DNA of 64,000 nucleotides from positions 1,964,501 to 2,028,500 of the forward strand of contig NZ_CP146275.1 of the NCBI RefSeq assembly GCF_037044555.1, read 5' to 3'. Shown one piece after another: positions 46,811 through 64,000 of this stretch (positions are counted from its first letter, which is position 1; each line of letters begins with the position of its first letter). The notes under the pieces were generated by a model, which was given only the letters and a program-made list of their open reading frames with translations, was not told where the DNA came from and did not search any database. The DNA is from Pelagibacterium nitratireducens. GTDB taxonomy: Bacteria > Pseudomonadota > Alphaproteobacteria > Rhizobiales > Devosiaceae. Both the position numbers and the translations under genes were made by a program.

Positions 46811-47845
46811 ATGGATTACAGACCGCTCGGCAAATCCGGCCTCAAGGTGCCGGTTCTCAGCTTCGGCGCCGGCACGTTCGGTGGGGCCGGCCCACTATTT
46901 GGCAATTGGGGCACTTCCGATGCCATTGAAGCCGGCCGCCTCGTCGACATCTGTCTTGAGGCGGGGGTCAATTTGTTCGACACCGCCGATGTCTATTCTG
47001 ACGGCGCCTCTGAAGAGGTTCTGGGGCAAGCCATCAAGGGCAAGCGCGATGCCGTGCTGATCTCGACCAAGACCGGGCTTCCGATGGGGGATGGGCCCAA
47101 TGACGGCGGATCCTCCCGCTTCCGTCTGGTTCGCGCAGTCGAGGATGCGCTGCGCCGCCTTGAGACGGACCATATCGACATACTCCAACTTCATGCCTTC
47201 GACATCGCGACCCCGGTCGAGGAGGTGCTTTCAACGCTCGATATGCTGGTCCGCGCCGGCAAGGTTCGCTATGTCGGAGTGTCAAATTTCTCAGGCTGGC
47301 AGGTGATGAAATCGCTGGCCATGGCCGACCGTCACGGTTGGCCGCGCTATGTTGCCAATCAGGTCTATTATTCGCTGGTCGGGCGCGACTATGAGTGGGA
47401 ATTGATGCCGCTCGGGCAGGATCAGGGGCTCGGTGCGCTGGTCTGGAGTCCGCTGGGCTGGGGGCGGCTGACGGGGAAAATCCGGCGCGGGGCGCCGTTG
47501 CCGGAGGGCAGCCGTCTGCACGAAACCGCAAGCTTTGGTCCGCCGGTGGATGAGGAGCACCTCTATGGCGTTGTCGAGGCTCTCGATGCGGTAGCTGAGG
47601 AAACCGGCAAGACCGTTGCGCAGGTCGCGCTCAACTGGTTGCTACAACGCCCCACAGTCTCATCAGTCATTGTCGGGGCGCGCAACGAAGAGCAATTGCG
47701 CCAGAATCTGGGTGCGGTCGGCTGGAATCTGACCGCTGAGCAGGTCGCCAGGCTCGATGATGCCAGTGCCGTGACGGCTCCCTATCCCTATTTCCCCTAT
47801 CGCCGGCAGGAGGGGTTTGCACGGCTCAATCCGCCAATGGTCTGA
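46811..47845 (+). CDS. Aldo/keto reductase
   Basis: A 344-residue NADPH-dependent reductase. The catalytic tetrad is visible: Asp and Tyr in NLFDTADVYSDGASEEVLG, Lys in ISTKTG and His in ILQLHAFD. Cofactor binding is in the IVGARNEEQLRQNLGA segment near the C-terminus. The family reduces aldehydes and ketones; here it may modify a compound exported by the neighbouring MFS protein. It is the last core gene before the acquired island. Confidence 0.95.
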   Translation: MDYRPLGKSGLKVPVLSFGAGTFGGAGPLFGNWGTSDAIEAGRLVDICLEAGVNLFDTADVYSDGASEEVLGQAIKGKRDAVLISTKTGLPMGDGPNDGGSSRFRLVRAVEDALRRLETDHIDILQLHAFDIATPVEEVLSTLDMLVRAGKVRYVGVSNFSGWQVMKSLAMADRHGWPRYVANQVYYSLVGRDYEWELMPLGQDQGLGALVWSPLGWGRLTGKIRRGAPLPEGSRLHETASFGPPVDEEHLYGVVEALDAVAEETGKTVAQVALNWLLQRPTVSSVIVGARNEEQLRQNLGAVGWNLTAEQVARLDDASAVTAPYPYFPYRRQEGFARLNPPMV

Positions 47846-48026
47846 TCTCTTGTATCTGGAAGATGGCGGGTGGGGGGAGTATGCGTTCAGCTATACAAAA
47901 CAACAGCTTGGCAAGGCTAACCGGTCAAAGTCGCGCCTTTGTATCAGTTTGCCAATTTCGAAGATTGGCTCCCTAATGCGGAGTGAAGCCTACCATAGGA
48001 GTTGGCTTCAACGCGATGCGAGCGCA
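47846..48026. other. Intergenic, probable left edge of the acquired island
   Basis: The 181 bases between the aldo/keto reductase and ietS hold no gene, tRNA or clear terminator. Base composition begins to fall here. An intact tRNA-Pro that would mark the other end of a tRNA-targeted island was looked for and not seen. Confidence 0.4.
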
Positions 48027-50288
48027 TTAACTGAACACGTCGACTTCCAGTTCCTGATCGATGACGGCGCTCTCTACGTAAGAGCGCAAGCGTTGCGCCG
48101 TGGAATTATAGATGGCGGGCTCATCCGACTGCGACTCCAGCGTTAAGACAAACGCGACCGATTGTTCCCCGAGCTCCCTCTGGCTCGTCACTTCAAACTG
48201 AAACAGATCGCGGGCAAAGACCTGTGCTCGTAACCGGAAGCTGCTCCCTGTAAACTGGATCCCAGTTCGCTTGCTGAAGTCGCGCGCATGCCTCCGTACT
48301 GGGTACCACTTTGCTAAGTCGTCTCTAGCTGATTGCTCCGGATCTGTACTCTCCCGCATACTGCCAAGGAGATTGGCGACAGCACCCTTTGTATTCTTGT
48401 ATTGGAGGGCTACCTGGAGACGGGTGGAAAAGTAATTCGGCCCGCCAGTCTCTGAAAGCAATGGATCAAGTATGGCCGTCAAACGTGCCTTTCCCTTCAG
48501 CTTTCCATCTACAATCAATTCCGGCGGGATTGGTATGTCATCCCAATGATATGCATACCCCGGCACCAACTCGGACTTCCATGCCATGGTGACGGATCCC
48601 GGCTTGCATAACCATGGTAAAGTGCCGTGGAAAGGCGTGCCCCATCCTTGCGTCCTTGAATGCTGCATCAACTCCGAGCGATCGATTAGCAACGCTTTTA
48701 CGAGGTCTGGCGATGGGTTTTTAAGTACTGCGAATGTATGGGCCGCGAGGGAAGAAACCAGAGGTGTAGCATAGCTACTCCCTACACGAGGGTCTCCGCC
48801 ACCGAGCATATTCACTCTGGAGAACCAAGACAGGTCGGGCTTTAACATTCCGTCGGGACCAGGCCCAAGCAGTGAAACAGAACAGTCTCCTGCAGGCTTG
48901 CCATCATGATCGTATTCGCGACCGCTAACAACTAGCGCCGCTTCGCAGTCCGCTGGCGGGCAAAGTTGATGTGAAGGATTTCCTGCCCCACGGTTGCCGA
49001 CGGAAATTATTGGTAGAATTGCGAAGTCACGGGCCAATCGCGAAATTTCGTGACCTAAGTAGCTTACAGTTTCTAGCCCAAACTCTGGTAGCAGTTGATT
49101 AAATGAAAGGTTCCAGACTTTCGCTTCCGGGTACCGTCGGGCGATCTGGCGAAGATAGTCCACGAGCGCGTCTGGCGTTGGGGACTGATTTGAACTGGCC
49201 TTTGCAACTGCCGCGACAGTGCCAAACCGGCAATCCAATTGCGGCAAATTGAGCTTGTTATTCCAAGCGTATCCATGAACGACAAGGGAGGTGACCCTGT
49301 TTCCATGTGCAACATCAGCTATGCCCTGCGGAACGAGAGGGATTGCCTTCCAGGCCTCCAAACCAGCATACGAACGTGCACTGTGCCCGCCATCAACCAC
49401 GGCAATTACTGGTTGCGTTAACGCAGAAGGTAATGGCGGCGCGGGATGGTTGCCTTCACTCGGTGCCGTCAGGCCCACTTTGGCGACCGGGTCAACGCGG
49501 AGGAGCGTTCCCGACGCCACTATTTGGCCCAACGCATCTATCGATGGGATGGTGAGAACTGCTCGTGCAGTGAGATGCTCACGATACTGCCGGACCACCC
49601 GGTTTAGTGCCGATTGGCTCTCATTCCGTACCGCTGGAGCACCTTCGGCCTGATCGCCTGAATTGAGCGCGACAGACGAAAAGCTTCTCAATATTCTGCG
49701 CCGTTCCTCCAAACCTACCAGCGATTGGACTACCGAACTTTTCGCGTGATGATCCCTAAACGGCCGAAGCCATACGGCAAATGCTTTGCCGCCCTCAACC
49801 TCTTCGGCCAGCTCCCACAGCGTCTCTATTTTTCTGCCGCGTGTGACAGCCTCCGCATCCAGCGCGCGGATGCTCCTAACGCGTGAGATTGCTGTCCGCG
49901 CTTCAATCGTTTGCGCTGTCAAAATCTGCTTTGCAAATCCTTCTAACCGATCCACAGGTATCTCGGCCAAATATCCCCGTGAAGCAGGCGCGACGAGTTT
50001 CGCGTCCCCAGCAAGCGCAACCAATCCTTTTGGAGTCCAGGTGGGCGCGAAAGAGTCAGAAAACATTTCCACTATCAGATGGATACGCCCCCCATGCGCC
50101 GAGAGGCTAGCGCTTTCGGCCGAGATGCGACGACACGATTCGGCCAACGCTACTCGTTGAGCCGAGAGACGACCCGCCACCACTCCCGCCTCACCCTGCC
50201 CACCAACAGGGGGTTCTTCGGGCACTGGGCCTTTTGTAAGGCGCAGTACAGGATTCAGCAGCGGGGCTTTTTCCGGCTCGCGGGCCAT
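48027..50288 (-). CDS. ietS: Subtilisin-like serine protease of an IetAS-type system
   Basis: A 753-residue protein with an S8 subtilase domain in the middle. The catalytic triad can be read: Asp299 in VIAVVDGGHS, His328 in VAHGNRVTSL and Ser505 in VGSSYATPLVSS; the oxyanion Asn432 is in ISVGNRGAGNP. About 290 residues precede the domain and about 190 follow it; neither part has a recognised family, and no signal peptide is present, so it acts in the cytoplasm. It starts 4 bases after the AAA+ ATPase with AAGGA. This pair was first described for plasmid incompatibility and stability on an Agrobacterium Ti plasmid and later as an antiphage system. GC is lower than in the flanking core genes. 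Confidence 0.88.
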   Translation of the reverse strand: MAREPEKAPLLNPVLRLTKGPVPEEPPVGGQGEAGVVAGRLSAQRVALAESCRRISAESASLSAHGGRIHLIVEMFSDSFAPTWTPKGLVALAGDAKLVAPASRGYLAEIPVDRLEGFAKQILTAQTIEARTAISRVRSIRALDAEAVTRGRKIETLWELAEEVEGGKAFAVWLRPFRDHHAKSSVVQSLVGLEERRRILRSFSSVALNSGDQAEGAPAVRNESQSALNRVVRQYREHLTARAVLTIPSIDALGQIVASGTLLRVDPVAKVGLTAPSEGNHPAPPLPSALTQPVIAVVDGGHSARSYAGLEAWKAIPLVPQGIADVAHGNRVTSLVVHGYAWNNKLNLPQLDCRFGTVAAVAKASSNQSPTPDALVDYLRQIARRYPEAKVWNLSFNQLLPEFGLETVSYLGHEISRLARDFAILPIISVGNRGAGNPSHQLCPPADCEAALVVSGREYDHDGKPAGDCSVSLLGPGPDGMLKPDLSWFSRVNMLGGGDPRVGSSYATPLVSSLAAHTFAVLKNPSPDLVKALLIDRSELMQHSRTQGWGTPFHGTLPWLCKPGSVTMAWKSELVPGYAYHWDDIPIPPELIVDGKLKGKARLTAILDPLLSETGGPNYFSTRLQVALQYKNTKGAVANLLGSMRESTDPEQSARDDLAKWYPVRRHARDFSKRTGIQFTGSSFRLRAQVFARDLFQFEVTSQRELGEQSVAFVLTLESQSDEPAIYNSTAQRLRSYVESAVIDQELEVDVFS

Positions 50289-50292
50289 CTGT

Positions 50293-51399
50293 CTAATCCT
50301 TCAAATATGCTGCTACAGCCTGCCTCGAAACACCGAGTAGTCGCGCGGCTTCCGCGCCAGACAGCTTCAACTCTCCCACCAAGATGTTCGCCGCCTCTCT
50401 CTTGGCCTCGCTAGATATCAACCCCCGAGAGGGCAAGCCAACTCCGCTGCGCCTTCTCTGTATAACCGAGTAAGCTACTGCAGCGATATCCAAATCGTTA
50501 CTATCTAAAACAGCATTTCGACGAACTGCCCATGCGATATTCTGGATATCGGCACCAGTTAAGCCATCCGATATTTTCCCTAACGTCAAGTGCACTTTAT
50601 CCAAATCGGCGTCATTCAACAAAAAGTGGCGCCATAAACTGCTGCGCACTTCTTCATCTGGAAGACCAACTTCTATGCGATATGGAAACCGCCTGAAAAT
50701 CGCTGGATCAAGCAACTGCGCGTGATTAGTTGCACCAATCACAACGGCTCTGTCATCGAGAGAATCTAAGCCCTGGATGACAGTATTAACAACGCGTTTC
50801 AGTTCGCCAAGTTCATGTTTGTCATCGCGCATTTTAGCAACGGCATCCATTTCATCGAGAAATAGGACTCCATCGCGACCGGGCACGTAGTCGAAAACGT
50901 TACGGATGTTCTTGGCGGTATCGCCCAGAAGTGACGAAATCACAGCATCAAGGCGTACCACATACAGAGGGCGGCCGATTTGAGATGCGATATGACCGGC
51001 AATCAACGACTTCCCTGTGCCTGGTGGCCCCGACAACAAAAGCGACTGTCGATTCGTGAGCCCCATTTTGCTCAGAAGCTCAGAGTTCTGGACGTCGTCG
51101 ATGAACGAGCTGAAGGTAGCGGCAGCATCACCGTTTAGAAAAAGTGGCGTTGTTGGCCAGTCCTGCTCCTCCACTAGAGGTGCTCGCGATTTTGTGTCGA
51201 CCGGCAGGGTTTCGGCATAACCTGATGCTCGAAGCGGCACCCCCTTCCGCCTCAGAAGGCTGCGAATTTTTTTCGCCCCATCTTCGTCGTCCGACATAAG
51301 AAATTGCGCAAGACGATTTGCGACCCGTCGGACGCGAGTATAGTCGGCTGCCAAAGCTGCATCGGTTAGTTCATAAATGTCGACTGAGAGTCTGCTCAT
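50293..51399 (-). CDS. ietA: AAA+ ATPase of an IetAS-type system, with C-terminal helix-turn-helix
   Basis: A 368-residue protein: a helical N-terminus (residues 1 to 85), then a single AAA+ module with Walker A GPPGTGKS (124 to 131), Walker B VLFLDEMDA (178 to 186), sensor 1 in IGATNHAQL (221 to 229) and an arginine-rich DPAIFRRFPYR. The last 35 residues (LSGAEAARLLGVSRQAVAAYLKD) read as a DNA-binding helix-turn-helix of the kind seen in FIS-like or homeodomain-like regulators. It is thought to restrain or license the protease. The HTH and the palindrome just upstream suggest autoregulation. First gene of the ietA-ietS operon. Confidence 0.88.
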   Translation of the reverse strand: MSRLSVDIYELTDAALAADYTRVRRVANRLAQFLMSDDEDGAKKIRSLLRRKGVPLRASGYAETLPVDTKSRAPLVEEQDWPTTPLFLNGDAAATFSSFIDDVQNSELLSKMGLTNRQSLLLSGPPGTGKSLIAGHIASQIGRPLYVVRLDAVISSLLGDTAKNIRNVFDYVPGRDGVLFLDEMDAVAKMRDDKHELGELKRVVNTVIQGLDSLDDRAVVIGATNHAQLLDPAIFRRFPYRIEVGLPDEEVRSSLWRHFLLNDADLDKVHLTLGKISDGLTGADIQNIAWAVRRNAVLDSNDLDIAAVAYSVIQRRRSGVGLPSRGLISSEAKREAANILVGELKLSGAEAARLLGVSRQAVAAYLKD

Positions 51400-51450
51400 A
51401 GGTTGGTTCCGTCAATTTATATCGCTCAGATGTAAACCGAAATCGGGCAA

Positions 51451-51481
51451 TTGACAAACGATTTAGCGCATGCGTAAATCG
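51451..51481. promoter_or_regulatory. Shared promoter/operator between ietA and the DUF2188 gene
   Basis: A plus-strand -35 TTGACA (51451 to 51456) is followed by a 23-bp near-perfect palindrome with arms CGATTTA (51459 to 51465) and TAAATCG (51475 to 51481) around GCGCATGCG, which covers the spacer and the probable -10 (TAAATC, 18-base spacing). On the other strand TTGTCA-N17-TACATC could serve ietA. The palindrome is placed to block both promoters. Confidence 0.55.
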
Positions 51482-51628
51482 ATTTGCTGACATTGTGAGT
51501 CTACAGCAGAAAGGAGGTGATCAAATGTCTGGAAAGAATCAACACGTCGTCCCGCACGCGAACGGCTGGGCCGTTCGCGGTGCCGGTAACGTTCGCTCAA
51601 CAGCGGTTCATGACACGCAAGCAGAGGC

Positions 51629-51636
51629 TATCTCGC
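51629..51636. repeat. Left target-site duplication of IS66
   Basis: TATCTCGC, repeated exactly at 54426 to 54433. Eight bases is the standard duplication length for IS66 elements. Confidence 0.92.
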
Positions 51637-51696
51637 GTAAGCCTCCGTTGAGGGCCGCCTTTGCCTGAGCGGCCGATCTGGTAGCAAACTATCGCT

Positions 51697-52107
51697 ATGG
51701 ATATCCTTACAGATAGAAGCCGTGTGGAGCGGCTCGAGATTGTGGACACAGGCCGGCGCCGGCGGTTCAGTGATGCGGAGAAGATCCGGATCGTTGAAGA
51801 AAGCTTGTCGGCCCCGCGAATGGGTTCGGCGACCGCACGACGTCATGGAATTGCGGTGCCATTGCTTTTTGCCTGGCGCAAGGCGTATCGCGACGGCCAG
51901 CTGGGCAACGAGGCGGCTTCGTTTTATCCGGTACGCTTGGATGGGATTGGGGGTCATGCCAGCGATGGCAGCCTTCCACCAGAGCCGCCCACGGATGGAT
52001 CAGCCAGTCCTGTCGAGATCGTGCTGCGCAATGGTCGCCGCATGATCGTACGCTCCGATATCGCCCCGTTTGCGTTGGGACGCCTGCTCGATGTGGTGGA
52101 CCGATGA
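51697..52107 (+). CDS. tnpA: IS66 accessory protein TnpA
   Basis: A 136-residue protein with an N-terminal helix-turn-helix ([31 protein letters not shown], about residues 22 to 52) of the IS66 OrfA group, thought to bind the element ends or regulate transposition. Its stop overlaps tnpB by ATGA. Confidence 0.92.
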
Positions 52108-52451
52108 TCCCGGTTCCAAGCGGGACCCGTGTATGGCTGGCGGCGGGCCACACTGACATGCGAAAGGGGTTCAACTCTTTAGCGCTGGTGGTCCAGGAAG
52201 TGCTCAAGCGTGACCCTCATGGCGGACATCTGTTTGTGTTCCGGGGTCGCAAGGGCAATCTGGTTCGCATCATCTGGCACGATGGCCAGGGGGCATGTGT
52301 TTTTACAAAGCGGCTCGAGCGCGGCCGCTTCCTTTGGCCCTCGCCGGCCGATGGTGTTGTGACGATCTCGTCTGCCCAGCTCGGATATCTGCTTGAGGGG
52401 ATCGACTGGCGGATGCCGCAAAAGACTTGGCGGCCACTCTCGGCGGGATAG
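52104..52451 (+). CDS. tnpB: IS66 accessory protein TnpB
   Basis: A 115-residue protein of the IS66 Orf2 group: [24 protein letters not shown], then [23 protein letters not shown] and FLWPSP. It is required for transposition in studied elements, with unknown biochemistry. It is unrelated to the RNA-guided nuclease TnpB of IS200/IS605 in spite of the name. Confidence 0.94.
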
Positions 52452-52540
52452 TCATATTGGACCGCGACACGGTGACTCATCTGGTGCAAAACGGGGCATA
52501 TCGGCTCGTGGGTGGGACCACATTCTGGTAAGGTCACGGC

Positions 52541-54169
52541 ATGGTCGAACCTGCCGGAAACGCCGAGATTGCTGCCCTTCGCGCTGCACTTGCCGCAGCC
52601 GAACAGCGTGCCGATCTGGCGGAAGCCGAAGCGGCGCGGGTTGTTGCAGAAAAGACCGATGGCGACGCCGAGATCGCCCGCCTCAAGCTCGAAATCGAAA
52701 AGCTCAAGCGCAGTCTTTATGGACAGCGCTCCGAGAGGAAGGCCAAGCTGCTCGACCAGCTCGAGTTCGAACTCGAGGATCTTGAAGCGGCGGCCACCGA
52801 AGACGAGCTTGCCGCCGAAATGGCCGCAGCCAAGGCTGCACCGGTCAGAGCCTTTACCCGCAAGCGGGCGCAACGGCGCGCCTTTCCCGATCACCTGCCG
52901 CGCGAGCGCGTCGTGGTGCCAGCGCCGCAAGCCTGTGAATGCTGCGGGTCCGATCACCTGGTCAAGCTGGGCGAGGACGTGACCGAAACGCTTGAGGTGA
53001 TCCCGCGTCAATGGAAGGTGGTCCAGACGGTGCGGGAGAAGTTCAGTTGCCGGGATTGTGAGAAGATCAGTCAACCACCGGCACCATTCCATCCCACCCC
53101 GCGTGGCTTTGCCGGACCCAATCTTCTGGCGACGATCCTGTTTGAAAAGTTCGGTCAGCATCAGCCGCTCAACCGCCAGTCCGAGCGCTTTGCCAGAGAG
53201 GGCGTGCCCGTCAGTCTCTCGACGCTGGCCGATCAGGTTGGCGCCGCAACGGTTGCGCTCAAGCCGCTCCATGATCTGATCGCCGATCACGTGATGGCTG
53301 CCGATCGATTGCACGGGGACGACACCACCGTGCCGATCCTGGCCAAGGGTCAGACCAGAACGGGTCGGGTGTGGACTTACGTACGTGATAACCGCCCCTT
53401 CGGCGGTATCGATGGTCCGGCAGCTCTGTTCTTTGCTTCACCCGATCGTAGGGGCGAGCATCCAAGGAGCCATCTTGTCGACTATTCCGGCATCCTTCAG
53501 GTGGACGCCTTCGCCGGCTACAACGGCCTGTTCGATCCCGAGCGTCGCAGTGAGCCTATCCAGCCGGCCTTTTGCTGGGCTCACGGACGACGACCCTTGT
53601 TCGAGCTTGCCGATATCGAAAGGGTCCGAAAAAAGAACGGCAAGGGCGGCGCCATCTCTCCGGTTGCGCTCGAGGCGGTGCGCAGGATCGACGAGATCTT
53701 TGCCATCGAACGCGATCTTTATGGCCTGCCGCCTGATCAGCGTCTTGCCGAGCGGCAGCGGCTTTGCGCGCCACTGGTTGAGGAGCTGCATGCCTATATG
53801 ATGACCGAGCGCGAAAAGCTCTCGCGTCACGCTCCGGTGGCCAAGGCCATGAACTATATGCTCGCGCGCTGGACAGGCTTTGCCGCATTCCTTGAGGATG
53901 GCCGCATATGCCTCTCGAACAACGCAGCCGAGCGGGCGCTGCGCGGAATTGCCCTTGGCAGAAAAGCGTGGCTGTTCGCTGGTTCGGACCGCGGTGCCCG
54001 CCGGGCCGCGTTCATGTACACCCTCATTGTCTCGGCCAAGCTCAACGATATCGATCCCCAGGCCTGGCTCGCCGACGTGCTCGCCCGCATTGCCGACATG
54101 CCGCAGAACCGGCTGGGAGAACTGCTTCCCTGGAACTGGGTGCCGCAGGCCACGCGTCAGGCCGCCTGA
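52541..54169 (+). CDS. tnpC: IS66 transposase TnpC
   Basis: A 542-residue DDE transposase. An N-terminal coiled coil (residues about 5 to 70) is followed by a zinc-finger-like CECCGSDH and CRDCEKI, then the catalytic triad: Asp in LHGDDTTVPIL, Asp in LQVDAFAGYN and Glu in NNAAERALRGI. The frame is intact and of normal length. Confidence 0.95.
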   Translation: MVEPAGNAEIAALRAALAAAEQRADLAEAEAARVVAEKTDGDAEIARLKLEIEKLKRSLYGQRSERKAKLLDQLEFELEDLEAAATEDELAAEMAAAKAAPVRAFTRKRAQRRAFPDHLPRERVVVPAPQACECCGSDHLVKLGEDVTETLEVIPRQWKVVQTVREKFSCRDCEKISQPPAPFHPTPRGFAGPNLLATILFEKFGQHQPLNRQSERFAREGVPVSLSTLADQVGAATVALKPLHDLIADHVMAADRLHGDDTTVPILAKGQTRTGRVWTYVRDNRPFGGIDGPAALFFASPDRRGEHPRSHLVDYSGILQVDAFAGYNGLFDPERRSEPIQPAFCWAHGRRPLFELADIERVRKKNGKGGAISPVALEAVRRIDEIFAIERDLYGLPPDQRLAERQRLCAPLVEELHAYMMTEREKLSRHAPVAKAMNYMLARWTGFAAFLEDGRICLSNNAAERALRGIALGRKAWLFAGSDRGARRAAFMYTLIVSAKLNDIDPQAWLADVLARIADMPQNRLGELLPWNWVPQATRQAA

Positions 54170-54171
54170 TC

Positions 54172-54396
54172 GTGCAGCGCAATAAGGTTCATGCCGTCAA
54201 AACCATCGACCGCGTCGCTGCCGAGCTCGGCGAGACGGTCGACCGCATCTTCGACATCGCCATCGAAATGGAAACGGAAGACGGCGTGATCTGGGTCTAT
54301 AGTCCCGCCGATGACGGTGGCACGATCGCCTTTACTGAAGATGGGATCGAGTGCCTCCGAAATCTCATCGAAGAACACCAATCAGCCGGATCCTGA
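54172..54396 (+). CDS. Small passenger protein of IS66
   Basis: A 74-residue protein with a GTG start 2 bases after tnpC, inside the right end of the element. It has a helical first half (IDRVAAELGETVDRIFDIAIEME) and a strand-rich segment (DGVIWVYSPADDGGTIAFTED). Similar small frames are found at this place in other rhizobial IS66 elements; function unknown. Confidence 0.7.
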   Translation: MQRNKVHAVKTIDRVAAELGETVDRIFDIAIEMETEDGVIWVYSPADDGGTIAFTEDGIECLRNLIEEHQSAGS

Positions 54397-54425
54397 AAGC
54401 TCCGCGGTTCTCAACGGATGCTTAC

Positions 54426-54433
54426 TATCTCGC
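54426..54433. repeat. Right target-site duplication of IS66
   Basis: Second exact copy of TATCTCGC, directly followed by the rest of the DUF2188 frame. Confidence 0.92.
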
Positions 54434-54546
54434 GCGCCCGCGATATAGCCATGAATCAGCAATCGGAATTGCTGATTCATGGCCGAAATGGGCAAATCCG
54501 TGCCCGGGATAGCTACGGCAATGACCCCTATCCTCCCAAGGGATAG

Positions 54547-54983: not shown

Positions 54984-55700
54984 TTAAGGTTGCCAATTTG
55001 TCGTCACGGGCCAATTTCTGCTCTTGTGACAGGCATAAATTCCGCTTTGCTGGATGATGTCAGCGATGGCTTTTCGCCAATGGCTCTCATTGTTTTGCAG
55101 CGTGAATTGGCAACAATAGAGAAACACATCGGCCAGTTGAATCATCCGGCTATGGTGTGAGCGGGCAAAATGGACGGTATCGATGATGTTCTCGATGTCT
55201 CGCCCTGCAGCCCACTCAGTGCCACCTCGGCGGTACTTTGAAAGGCTTGTAACAGAGGGACCAACGGCCGGCTCGTCATAGTCGCCGAACAGCATTCCCA
55301 AAGTTTCCTTCTCACGAAAATACGCGTCAGCCTGCTCGATCAGATACATGAAAGCGATCTCGCTGGGGTCCTTCGGAGAGTATACAATATTTTGCGGATT
55401 GATCCTAATCCGGATGCGGCCCACTTTTTCGTCGGTCAGGATGTCCAGCAACTCCTTCAAAATGCCGAGCCGCTCCCCCCAATCTCGCCCTTTGAAATTT
55501 CCTTTGCCACGGCATAGCTCAAAGCCGTGAAATTCGGTTTCGCGACTGAGTCGGCGGTCGCCGAATGCCTTCAACGACAGGTCGTTTACTCGCTCTTCCA
55601 AGGCTGGCACGTGCTCATGGTGGACGCAAACGCCGCCCATCCAAAAGCTGCTCTGGACTGGCGGGTCATACTTAACTTCATCAAAATAAAGAAGGTGCAC
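54984..55700 (-). CDS. DUF3800 protein
   Basis: A 238-residue protein of the DUF3800 type, an RNase H-like fold: YFDEVKYDPPVQSSFWMGGV at the start, a central GRIRIRINPQ strand and the late SHHSRMIQLADVFLYCCQFTL with the conserved LAD. Such proteins are often in islands and prophages and some occur beside defence genes, but the substrate is unknown. It is flanked by a phage-gene fragment and by the tRNA-Pro-like scar. Codon use and GC are below those of the core. Confidence 0.8.
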   Translation of the reverse strand: MHLLYFDEVKYDPPVQSSFWMGGVCVHHEHVPALEERVNDLSLKAFGDRRLSRETEFHGFELCRGKGNFKGRDWGERLGILKELLDILTDEKVGRIRIRINPQNIVYSPKDPSEIAFMYLIEQADAYFREKETLGMLFGDYDEPAVGPSVTSLSKYRRGGTEWAAGRDIENIIDTVHFARSHHSRMIQLADVFLYCCQFTLQNNESHWRKAIADIIQQSGIYACHKSRNWPVTTNWQP

Positions 55701-55841: not shown

Positions 55842-55888
55842 ATCTCGTTCGGGACGAGGGGGCGGGTGTTCGAATCACCCTACTCCGA
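55842..55888 (+). other. tRNA-Pro(CGG) 3'-half remnant, candidate attachment site
   Basis: The segment contains an anticodon arm CTCGTTCGGGACGAG (anticodon CGG), a variable stretch, a perfect T-arm GGGTGTTCGAATCACCC and the 3' acceptor strand TACTCCGA. The matching 5' acceptor (CGGAGTA) and a proper D-arm are absent upstream. Elements that integrate into the 3' end of a tRNA gene leave exactly such a fragment. The match to tRNA-Pro is by memory of the family. Confidence 0.6.
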
Positions 55889-55939: not shown

Positions 55940-56773
55940 TTACCCAAACAGGGGCAAGCTCGGCTCCGGAAATGTGTAGATCAGCACCTCGCCTACAGCT
56001 TTGGGTCCACCGCTCGCCTGCCCGATGGAATAGGTTAGATCGACAGCCTCCGTGCGAAAATTGCCGAAGGTGCGACGCACGCCCGGTGTATCGTTGAGGG
56101 AAACGATTGCCTTGCCTTGGAGCCGCTCGAGACGCTCTGCCATCTTGTCGAACTGCTCACGATCGAACAGCCCGGAGCCATAATCGTCTTCACAATCCCA
56201 ATATGGAGGATCGAGATAGAACAATGTACTTGGTCCATCATAGCGATCGATCACCTCGGCCCAGTCGAGGTTCTCGATGACGACGCCGGCGAGACGCTCA
56301 TAAACGTCCTCGAGCGCCGGCCCGATCTGGGTATAGTCGAACCGAGCCGGGCGGCCCGATGAAACACCAAAATTCTGGCCCGTCACTTTGCCGCCGTAAG
56401 CGGTGCGCTGCAGGTACAGAAATCGCGCAGCGCGCTCCAGATCGGTCAGCGTTGACGGATCGACGCGTGACAATCGCTCGAACTCGCGGCGCGAGGTCAG
56501 TTGGAATTTCAGGTGATCGAGGAAGGCCGGATAGTGCCGCTGCAGGATCCTGAACAGCGTCACCACATCGCCATTGCGATCATTGATGATTTCGGACGTC
56601 GGGCGATGGGTCCTGCGGAAGAAGATGCCGCCCATACCAATGAAGGGCTCGGCATACACGGTGTGCGGGATTTGCCCAATGCGCTCTATGATTTTTGGCG
56701 CAAGAAGGCGCTTGCCACCCATATACGGGGCGAGCGGAGACACCGGTTGAACCGGCTCAAGGTAAGTTTCCAT
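55940..56773 (-). CDS. D12-class DNA adenine methyltransferase
   Basis: A 277-residue methylase of the Dam/D12 class. The AdoMet motif I is YAEPFIGMGGIFFRR (about residue 41), the target-recognition region lies between, and the catalytic motif is LFYLDPPYW (DPPY). The opening SPLAPYMGGKRLLAPKIIERI is typical. No restriction enzyme is nearby, so it is likely a solitary phage methylase that protects or times phage DNA. The target sequence is unknown. Confidence 0.9.
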   Translation of the reverse strand: METYLEPVQPVSPLAPYMGGKRLLAPKIIERIGQIPHTVYAEPFIGMGGIFFRRTHRPTSEIINDRNGDVVTLFRILQRHYPAFLDHLKFQLTSRREFERLSRVDPSTLTDLERAARFLYLQRTAYGGKVTGQNFGVSSGRPARFDYTQIGPALEDVYERLAGVVIENLDWAEVIDRYDGPSTLFYLDPPYWDCEDDYGSGLFDREQFDKMAERLERLQGKAIVSLNDTPGVRRTFGNFRTEAVDLTYSIGQASGGPKAVGEVLIYTFPEPSLPLFG

Positions 56774-58386: not shown

Positions 58387-58734
58387 ATGTCGCGCAGGAA
58401 AGGAGAGATGACTGCAGCGCGCATAGACCGGGAGTTCCCCTTCCAGGTCGCCCTGGCTGAAAGGCAGCGCAACTGGGCCTCGACCACGATCGAACAATTC
58501 TGCCGGATCCATGGTCTGTCGGTTGCCCCCTTCGGCCACGGCGTCTGTATCGACAATGACAGTTATGTGGTGACCTGCTTTGCCAGGCCCGAACACGCCG
58601 AGAAATTCCGCCGGGCGTTCGATGGCTATCGCTTTGACCCGCGCGACCGGGGTCGCGGTCACAACTGGATGAAGTGGACACCGAGGCAAATCCCGCTCAC
58701 ATTCATGCAAGAAGAGCTGATAAAGGACGCCGCC
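58387..58734 (+). CDS. Hypothetical module in frame with, and upstream of, the SRAP gene
   Basis: About 116 codons beginning at an ATG at 58387 (or 58408, after GGAAAGGAG) and continuing without a stop into the SRAP sequence. It has a compact small-protein look: FPFQVALAERQRNWASTTIEQ, then VAPFGHGVCIDNDSYVVTCF and DPRDRGRGHNWMKW. Similar stretches appear to me as free-standing small proteins. Here no stop codon separates it from the next gene, so the product is either a fusion or a separate chain from a lost stop. Confidence 0.6.
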
Positions 58735-59427
58735 ATGTGCAACCTCTATAGCCACACCTCGAACCGACAGGCGATCATCGATCTCGTCCGGGCCTTCCGC
58801 ATAAGCGAGCGGATCGGCAACCTCGAGCCCCAGTCTGCCATCTTTCCCAATTACCACGCTCCGATCGTCCGCGTTGTGGACGGCGAACGCGAGCTGACGC
58901 TTGGACGCTGGGGCATGCCCAGCCCGTCCTTCGCGCTCCAGGGAAAGGCCTATGATCCCGGCATCACCAACATCCGCAACACCAAGAGCCCCCATTGGCG
59001 TCGCTGGCTGGGACCGCAGGCGCGGTGCGTTGTGCCGTTCACCAGCTTTTCCGAATACGACCACACCAAGGGTCCGGACGGAAAAAAACTGGGCGACACC
59101 TGGTTCGCGCTGGATGAAACCCGCCGCCTCGCCTTCTTCGCCGGCATCTGGACCAATTACACCAGCGTCAGGCGCATAAAGGGCGACGACGGGAACTATC
59201 GCAATGAGGAGATCACCGATGATCTCTATGGCTTTTTGACCTGCGAACCCAATGCCGAGGTCGGCAAGGTGCATGAAAAGGCGATGCCGGTAATCCTCAC
59301 GACGGCCGACGAAATCGATCTCTGGCTTACAGCCCCTTGGGCAGAGGCAGAAGCCCTGCAGCGCCCCCTGCCCGACGGTACGCTCGACATTGTGGCCGTG
59401 GGCCAGAAATTCGACGAGGCAGCATGA
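58735..59427 (+). CDS. SRAP (YedK/HMCES-like) abasic-site protein
   Basis: A 230-residue SOS-response-associated peptidase-family protein. Known members link covalently to abasic sites in single-stranded DNA through Cys2 after Met1 is removed. Here the sequence MCNLYSHTSNRQAI gives Cys2, and NIRNT (Asn), CVVPFTSFSEYD (Glu) and KVHEKAMPVIL (His) supply the other active-site residues. AAAGGAC lies 6 to 12 bases before the ATG at 58735, supporting an internal start; starting at 58387 instead would bury Cys2. The upstream LexA box fits. Likely repairs or shields phage DNA during induction. Confidence 0.88.
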   Translation: MCNLYSHTSNRQAIIDLVRAFRISERIGNLEPQSAIFPNYHAPIVRVVDGERELTLGRWGMPSPSFALQGKAYDPGITNIRNTKSPHWRRWLGPQARCVVPFTSFSEYDHTKGPDGKKLGDTWFALDETRRLAFFAGIWTNYTSVRRIKGDDGNYRNEEITDDLYGFLTCEPNAEVGKVHEKAMPVILTTADEIDLWLTAPWAEAEALQRPLPDGTLDIVAVGQKFDEAA

Positions 59428-63265: not shown

Positions 63266-64000
63266 TCAGCGGGCGTCGGTACCTGCACCGCCAGCGGGTT
63301 GTTTGACCGAAATCGTCGTTGTCGCACCGCCATTGCGGTCCGACCGATGCGATACGCTATCGGCCCGGTAGGTGCCGTCAATGCCGGGCCGCGCCCCGAT
63401 CAGCACCACGTCGCATTCGGCGCGGGCGCCGGGCGCCAGATCGAGGGTGATGGTTCCCCCGCCGGCCTCGCGTTCGCTTTCGCGTCCGCGCGCTTCGAGC
63501 GTGGCCTTAGCGTCGGACCGGGTCGCCTCGGCAAGCCGCAACACGTTGTCGCCGACGCCTTCGGTTCCCTCAAATTGGACGCGTTCGGTTTTGACTTCCC
63601 CGGCCTCCCGGTCGAAATAGCGCGTTTCGCCGGCTGCAAAGGTCCGGCGCGGATCGCGCGGTTTCAGGCTCCAGCCGATCAGATTGGCGCCATAGCGGGC
63701 CGTAATCACCGGCAAGGGCTGGCCGCTGGCCGAAAGGCCCTCTCCGCGCCGAGCCAACACCGCCCTGTCACCGCGCAGTTTGAAGGTGCCGCCAAACTGG
63801 CGAGCCAAGCGTTCCCCCAGGGACAGGAAGCTCTCGAACTCGGCCGACCAGTAGTCCCGCGCGATGCCCGCCAGGGCAGGATTGACGGTCACCGAAAACC
63901 CTGCTTCGGCCCCGGCCGCCTCGATGAACTCGCCAAGGGTGGCGTCGTCGAGATGAAAGCCCTGCACCGTTTTGGCGCCGCCGGCCGTATCGAAGCCCTT
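63266..64000 (-). CDS. Phage late control gene D protein (tail), cut by window edge
   Basis: About 244 residues of the C-terminal part, open to the right edge. The sequence GFHLDDATLGEFIEAAGAEAGF, SEYEFLSLGERLARQFGG-like and KPRDPRRTFAAGETRYFDRE, and the end WRAD-type GIDGTYRADSVSHRSDRNGG are those of the phage GpD/late-control family, a tail baseplate hub component homologous to gp27-type proteins of myophages. It shows that structural genes continue beyond the right edge. Confidence 0.85.
   Translation of the reverse strand, partial: KGFDTAGGAKTVQGFHLDDATLGEFIEAAGAEAGFSVTVNPALAGIARDYWSAEFESFLSLGERLARQFGGTFKLRGDRAVLARRGEGLSASGQPLPVITARYGANLIGWSLKPRDPRRTFAAGETRYFDREAGEVKTERVQFEGTEGVGDNVLRLAEATRSDAKATLEARGRESEREAGGGTITLDLAPGARAECDVVLIGARPGIDGTYRADSVSHRSDRNGGATTTISVKQPAGGAGTDAR

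Follow-up and report, generated by a model that had tools for sequence, protein, structure and literature searches.

The 64,000-nucleotide stretch of Pelagibacterium nitratireducens DNA analysed here (contig NZ_CP146275.1, positions 1,964,501 to 2,028,500; hereafter the window) carries a pair of genes, ietA and ietS, that encode an AAA ATPase and a subtilase (Table 1). As the original prediction claimed, the two open reading frames (ORFs) are neighbours: ietA immediately precedes ietS in the same orientation, with a gap of 4 base pairs (bp). An array of short boxes phased at 21 bp lies between ietA and a divergent gene, the place of which is called the companion slot here. In the window, the slot gene encodes a DUF2188 protein and is cut by an IS66-family element. 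The low-GC setting also proposed for the pair is borne out, the guanine-plus-cytosine (GC) content per kilobase (kb) being 53.4–55.6% over the four kb from position 48001 versus 56.6–65.8% in the 48 kb to the left; the 54–58 kb part of the window is also low in GC, at 54.2–58.6%.

Table 1. Features of the ietAS locus and its surroundings (positions are those of the window)
Feature	Position	Strand	Remarks
Left att repeat GGCGGGTGGGGGGAG	47865–47879		right copy in tRNA-Ser(TGA), G000:C1:2068449-2068463 (G000, window genome), beyond the window
IetS	48027–50288	-	753-residue subtilase, complete ORF
IetS domains (residues)			N-terminal 1–165; propeptide-like ~166–275; S8 catalytic ~290–560; KP-43-like beta ~565–717
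IetA	50293–51399	-	368-residue AAA ATPase, complete ORF
IetA domains (residues)			three-helix bundle 3–51; classical-clade AAA ATPase ~90–300; C-terminal helix-turn-helix 330–367
Box 4 (TTGAC)	51411–51415	-	fourth box, at +63
Box 3 (TTTAC)	51432–51436	-	21-bp phased array upstream of ietA
Box 2 (TTGTC)	51453–51457	-	21-bp phased array upstream of ietA
Box 1 (TTTAC)	51474–51478	-	21-bp phased array upstream of ietA
DUF2188 gene, 5' piece	51525–51636	+	divergent; cut by IS66-family element
IS66-family element	51637–54425	+	22-bp ends 86% complementary; TnpB and DDE transposase genes
DUF2188 gene, 3' piece	54434–54546	+	cut by IS66-family element
tRNA-Pro(CGG) 3' fragment	55863–55888	+	older integration scar within the element
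Phage tail protein (phrog_52)	63266–64000	-	runs off window end; among prophage genes between IetAS and integrase

Both proteins match the PADLOC models of the IetAS system in profile searches. IetA matches PDLC02196 over residues 7–367 of 368 (E=1.1e-94), and IetS matches PDLC02197 over residues 106–737 of 753 (E=3.9e-53). In Pfam, IetA scores 96.1 bits against the classical AAA profile PF00004 (cut-off 21.2) and IetS 38.1 bits against the Peptidase S8 profile PF00082 (cut-off 21.8). The PADLOC profiles and a search for IetS homologues place the homology well beyond chance level. Since both proteins match, the IetAS identity given in the original prediction is upheld, and sequence comparison confirms the pair as a genuine, if distant, member of IetAS in the PADLOC sense; the window copy would presumably have a defence role. 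A housekeeping ATPase and protease were rejected: the other AAA genes of the genome reach 3.1e-38 at best on the IetA model versus 3.0e-94 here, and no such NCBIfam model is found at cut-off among the 25 of 39 matches listed for IetA or the 3 listed for IetS.

The full catalytic triad claimed for IetS (Asp299, His328 and Ser505) is invariant, together with N432, in 110 aligned sequences that include that of the window (the 120 listed of 435 homologues, less 10 rows that were mostly incomplete). From its role in subtilisin, N432 is presumably the oxyanion residue. Structure alignment supports the S8 fold of the catalytic domain. When the predicted fold is compared with solved structures, residues ~166–275 align with subtilase propeptides, and the C-terminal tail with the beta domain of KP-43/SubHal. 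The original prediction had recognised no family either in the region before the subtilase domain or in the tail after it; this stands for residues 1–165, but not for the propeptide-like region or the tail. Pro-subtilisins, ProN-Tk-SP and KP-43/SubHal are secreted enzymes. Their propeptide-like, catalytic and C-terminal beta domains (PDB 3whi, 2e1p, 3afg, 1wmd and 5fax) align with those of IetS. Unlike these enzymes, IetS has no signal peptide evident by eye, and it has an additional N-terminal domain and an ATPase partner. In the best model, IetS would be a zymogen-like cytosolic subtilase.

The Walker motifs that had been claimed for IetA are equally well conserved. K130 (Walker A), D182/E183 (Walker B), N225 (sensor 1) and R236/R237 show no variation across 30 aligned sequences, among them that of the window. 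The predicted structure (predicted local distance difference test, pLDDT, 81.6; predicted template-modelling score, pTM, 0.71) has matches among solved structures that include FtsH and PAN, which are protease-linked unfoldases. An ATPase of the PAN/FtsH/Vps4 type is the model of IetA that forms part of the best explanation set out below. The C-terminal helix-turn-helix is not restricted to the window branch, a possibility that was rejected because other IetA clades also end in helix-turn-helix-like sequences, as judged by eye.

The array upstream of ietA is intact in the window, where its boxes span 12–79 bp before the gene. Of 39 non-redundant regions (taken from 55, near-copies being removed by script), 33 contain three TTNAC boxes at a spacing of exactly 21 bp when up to 2 of the 12 positions may mismatch, compared with 0.75 in dinucleotide shuffles; triplets at other spacings, from 14 to 32 bp, occur in 0–4 of the 39. 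Of 37 regions, 17 have a further, fourth box at +63, versus a background of 6%. In a second IetA clade, with the helix-turn-helix DIGEIAGKDKSTVSRQLG or similar, 6 of 10 regions have GCAAC boxes spaced at 21 bp (0 in shuffles, 0–1 at other spacings); the motif was read off locus L170 and thereafter found in five of the other nine. The L177 and L178 loci have GCAT/TGCA-like boxes at 20 bp, and weak 20-bp repeats (5 of 8 columns) occur at L169 and L179. Without a set motif, 20 or 21 is the best spacing at 7 of 13 loci of other clades, compared with 0.2 in shuffles. Six of the 39 regions remain under the TTNAC threshold (L013, L016, L028, L030, L049 and L163), of which L163 belongs with the GCAAC group. 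An array in every IetA locus is not supported, given these six regions and the lack of a clear array at three loci of other clades (L168, L171 and again L049).

Box sequence and helix-turn-helix change together, whereas the period remains close to two turns of the DNA helix, as expected if the reader lies within IetA. This comparison suggests that IetA may read the array through its C-terminal helix-turn-helix. TTGACA is the textbook -35 hexamer. Its resemblance to the boxes, together with their position shortly before ietA, would also suit RNA polymerase or a host regulator as the reader, the helix-turn-helix of IetA being used otherwise. However, three or four boxes with a fixed two-turn period make no promoter layout, the boxes differ between IetA clades that have different C-terminal helix-turn-helix sequences, and such a reader is considered unlikely. 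A simple scan of positions 47800–51700 found no sigma-70-like promoter.

The companion slot varies between loci. Among 28 genome loci with ietA, it holds DUF2188 in 10, a ubiquitin-like module in 4 and neither in 14. The L037 slot has Multi_ubiq and DUF6791/ThiF in Pfam, while those of L021, L023 and L024 have genes with tblastn similarity to the L106 genes for Multi_ubiq, E2 and E1; the Pfam check of ubiquitin-like slot genes covered L106 and L037. Two further cases come from plasmid records: pRi1724 (DUF2188) and Bradyrhizobium quebecense L106 (Multi_ubiq, E2 and E1). At these five loci (L021, L023, L024, L106 and L037), the ubiquitin-like conjugation genes share the array-bearing intergenic region with the ATPase-protease pair. 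Multi_ubiq (PF14452) has no match in the window genome. On a Microvirga plasmid (L103:2028-2279, minus strand), the slot is an ORF of 83 amino acids with two YRSAxSGRFVT-type repeats and no Pfam match, and the patatin ORF in another slot (L020:5490-6758, minus strand) starts with a short stretch that by eye resembles a decayed DUF2188 C-terminus.

In the window, both pieces of the slot gene exceed the DUF2188 (PF09954) cut-off of 22 bits, with scores of 43.5 and 36.8, and an 8-bp target duplication, TATCTCGC, flanks the IS66-family element (51629–51636 and 54426–54433). The pair of the window therefore persists without an intact DUF2188 copy there. This could mean that the window copy is decaying, and the two gene pieces would fit such a state; yet the reading frames of ietA and ietS are unbroken from end to end and keep all motifs, and the array too is intact, which makes decay quite improbable. 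That DUF2188 is an essential antitoxin is also unlikely, because the pair persists with a split gene and the genome's sole other match extends over 46 of the 62 profile positions. In the IetA tree, all 13 rows with DUF2188 fall within one 28-row clade (100/99) and form four groups: the window with Devosia (80/87), Magnetospirillum, two Defluviicoccus-type rows and seven Rhizobiaceae-type rows (L052 and L009 share one IetA sequence). DUF2188 may have entered the slot once or repeatedly, and this tree is compatible with a single origin. No DUF2188 was detected in 21 viral-contig loci, of which L057 and L058 offer hardly any or no sequence before ietA.

The pair is part of a larger insertion. The backbone shared with two genomes of the same genus, G780 and G772, ends 3' of an aldo/keto reductase gene (window ~47845–47879) and restarts at G000:C1:2068447-2068448; in a third genome, G507, the left flank alone was matched in the stretch taken. 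In G772, both flanks join with an overlap of ~17 bp within a tRNA-Ser(TGA) gene (L089:13888-13977), so that the window genome holds an insertion of ~56 kb bounded by the att repeat of Table 1. The integrase is found at the right end of this element, and IetAS at the opposite end, by attL. Of ten larger element ORFs picked, eight fall into named PHROGs families (tail, head, terminase, primase or integrase); the best family of the other two is of unknown function, with a DNA methyltransferase family second for one of them. IetAS is thus not next to a prophage, as first thought, but inside an att-bounded element that carries prophage genes, and on these sequence grounds it is cargo of a prophage-like element, located at its attL end. 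The island scar that had been noted does exist: the tRNA-Pro(CGG) fragment shares 26 identical bp with the gene that is intact at another place in the genome. Genes for a DUF3800 protein (54984–55700), a D12-class adenine methyltransferase (55940–56773) and an SRAP peptidase (58387–59427) separate IetAS from the phage tail genes.

The distribution of the pair is rare and patchy. Including the window's own genome in each case, 2 of 397 genomes from the order have an IetA match at E≤1e-90 and 2 of 136 from the family at E≤1e-80, and 1 of 385 drawn from the class has an IetS match at E≤1e-30. A genome of the same species, 84% complete, has no match. Among homologous loci, ietA is present in 28 of 39 from genomes, the other 11 being IetS matches that lie at a contig edge, are fragmentary or have a broken frame; all 21 from viral contigs have it completely or in part. 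These 21 IMG/VR contigs (L053–L073) carry the window branch of IetAS, which is therefore often prophage cargo. Of 30 matching plasmid records, 12 cover at least 80% of the query.

The IetAS pair of pTiC58, described by Yamamoto in 2009, reportedly had its founding role in plasmid stability and incompatibility. Like the window pair, it consists of an AAA ATPase and a subtilase and resides on a mobile element; it is a toxin-antitoxin pair, as the window pair would be. Annotated iteS and iteA of the Acidovorax plasmid p1-T1, taken as a stand-in for pTiC58, are 26% and 37% identical to those of the window. The pairs of pRi1724 and pRL8 (L048 and L107) are closer: they belong to the window sub-branch, with IetS 49% and IetA 61% identical, and have the same array, but they reside on conjugative plasmids and their divergent DUF2188 is intact. 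In a rival explanation, the pair would be a selfish stability module of the prophage-like element that mainly prevents its loss or excludes its relatives, any anti-phage effect being incidental. The reported founding role (Yamamoto 2009), the position at an att end and the viral-contig and plasmid matches favour this. Some pairs, however, adjoin defence genes, such as annotated Shedu at L049 and L173, and stability and defence roles are compatible with each other. The selfish module is a serious contender, although its probability falls somewhat short of even.

Experiments on relatives bear on the division of labour between the proteins. The available text of PMC5006074 describes sgiAT of SGI1, tested as toxin and antitoxin in E. 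coli: toxicity lies with the protease, and the ATPase counters it. Like the window pair, sgiAT comprises ATPase and subtilase genes in an integrated mobile element, but 20 bp separate its genes; no companion gene, helix-turn-helix or operator array was found in that text. In Mycoplasma mycoides, the ATPase of TA132/3 counteracts the toxicity of a subtilisin-type protease (PMC8562856, available text). This pair has similar sizes (353 and 757 amino acids) and the antitoxin gene first; unlike the window pair, it is a chromosomal mycoplasma pair. A 2025 study associates IetAS with phage resistance, with a mechanism that "remains unknown" (PMC11878078, available text). The terms "AAA" and "subtilase" are absent from the accessible part of PMC1779556. 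The array, the exchangeable companion in the slot and the propeptide-like domain were not found described in the accessible texts of the open-access literature searched; subscription papers were outside reach, and absence is unproven.

Taken together, these features are probably best explained by a self-regulating AAA+ antitoxin that restrains a cytosolic zymogen-like subtilase toxin, carried as cargo of a prophage-like element. Homology, active-site conservation, predicted domain folds, the array and the companion slot come from this analysis, while the assignment of toxin to the IetS type and antitoxin to the IetA type comes from the papers on relatives, as far as their text was available. 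IetS would be the toxic effector, a cytosolic subtilase with its own propeptide-like domain, and IetA would restrain it, or remodel and license it. Through its C-terminal helix-turn-helix, IetA would read the 21-bp array between ietA and the divergent companion, and by doing so is proposed to control its own level and that of the companion. An invading element might cause loss, titration or switching of IetA, upon which freed IetS would kill or arrest the cell. The array-reading role of IetA, the trigger and the activity of the window copy are inferred.

Several points weigh against this explanation. Firstly, both proteins miss the NCBIfam IteA/IteS equivalog cut-offs (288.6 of 510 bits for NF042959 and 168.7 of 900 bits for NF042956), said to define the experimentally named subfamily, and the window pair is therefore a distant branch of the known IetAS family. 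Secondly, the helix-turn-helix of IetA has a weak Pfam match (HTH_3, E=0.021). Thirdly, the TTNAC and GCAAC boxes were named after part of the same data had been viewed, spacing and shuffles serving as controls; box and spacing scans gave no clear array at L049, L168 and L171; and part of the array may be a promoter, since TTGAC is like the sigma-70 -35 hexamer. Finally, no post-segregational killing was obtained with the SGI1 pair when its own putative promoter drove it, according to the available text of PMC5006074.

A different division of labour would make the pair a two-component ATP-dependent protease, in which IetA unfolds phage or plasmid proteins and feeds them to IetS, the slot provides tags or adaptors, and no neutralisation takes place. 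The unfoldase matches of IetA would fit this, as would the Multi_ubiq-type and E1 genes in five slots, four of them (L021, L023, L024 and L106) with E2 too. It is nonetheless doubtful, given that the ATPase counteracts protease toxicity in sgiAT and TA132/3, as far as those sources go, and that half of the genome loci with ietA carry neither companion.

The antitoxin explanation can also be extended. An IetA oligomer would align its helix-turn-helix domains on the two-turn (20–21 bp) array, with clade-specific boxes; an incoming plasmid or phage that has the same array, or disturbs the array complex, would draw IetA off IetS and free the protease. The slot companions (DUF2188 or ubiquitin-like conjugation genes) would tune or tag the targets of IetS, and DUF2188 would be a general small partner of bacterial immune systems. 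The whole of this proposal, from a DNA-reading AAA+ antitoxin and array titration to interchangeable companions and a general immune partner, has a low probability; if true, it would give one mechanism for incompatibility and immunity.

DUF2188 is not confined to IetAS. Of 394 genomes of the order, 122 have it and 30 have Multi_ubiq, and in four of these 30 (G507, G440, G532 and G700) DUF2188 starts within ~0.4 kb of Multi_ubiq; random placement over the 14 genomes that hold both gives an expectation of 0.011 within 1 kb. The loci are G507:C1:878649-879134 (L092, L134), G440 (L133), G532 and G700 (L118), and an E1-like gene follows in G507, G440 and G700. At 30 high-scoring DUF2188 loci, 58 nearest-neighbour ORFs were compared with PADLOC at E≤1e-20. 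Among the 25 of 36 models listed, matches are to RmrA (up to 5), CapH (4), IetA (2), CBASS cyclase (2) and Pycsar cyclase (1), counts that are per model and may overlap. One of 53 backbone ORFs used as control matches PADLOC (mad3); since this control is chromosomal backbone, part of the excess of immune neighbours may reflect accessory regions generally. The two IetA neighbours are a Devosia locus of the window branch and L163 of another IetA clade (PDLC02195, E=4e-158). CBASS cyclase, guanylate-cyclase-type, patatin effector, RmrA or TRIP13 genes stand beside DUF2188 at L138, L139, L140, L142, L151 and L160. A family of ~207 amino acids (FINCPFDxxYxPxLxA...) recurs beside it at L145, L146, L148, L154, L155 and L162; two members gave no match in PADLOC, nor did one in Pfam.

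DUF2188, a domain of "unknown function", thus gains a recurring immune context in the order, next to IetAS, CBASS and Pycsar cyclases, RmrA and ubiquitin-like modules. For the IetAS family, an array that tracks the helix-turn-helix of the putative antitoxin, a propeptide-like domain in the putative toxin and an exchangeable slot would make the mechanism testable with small constructs.

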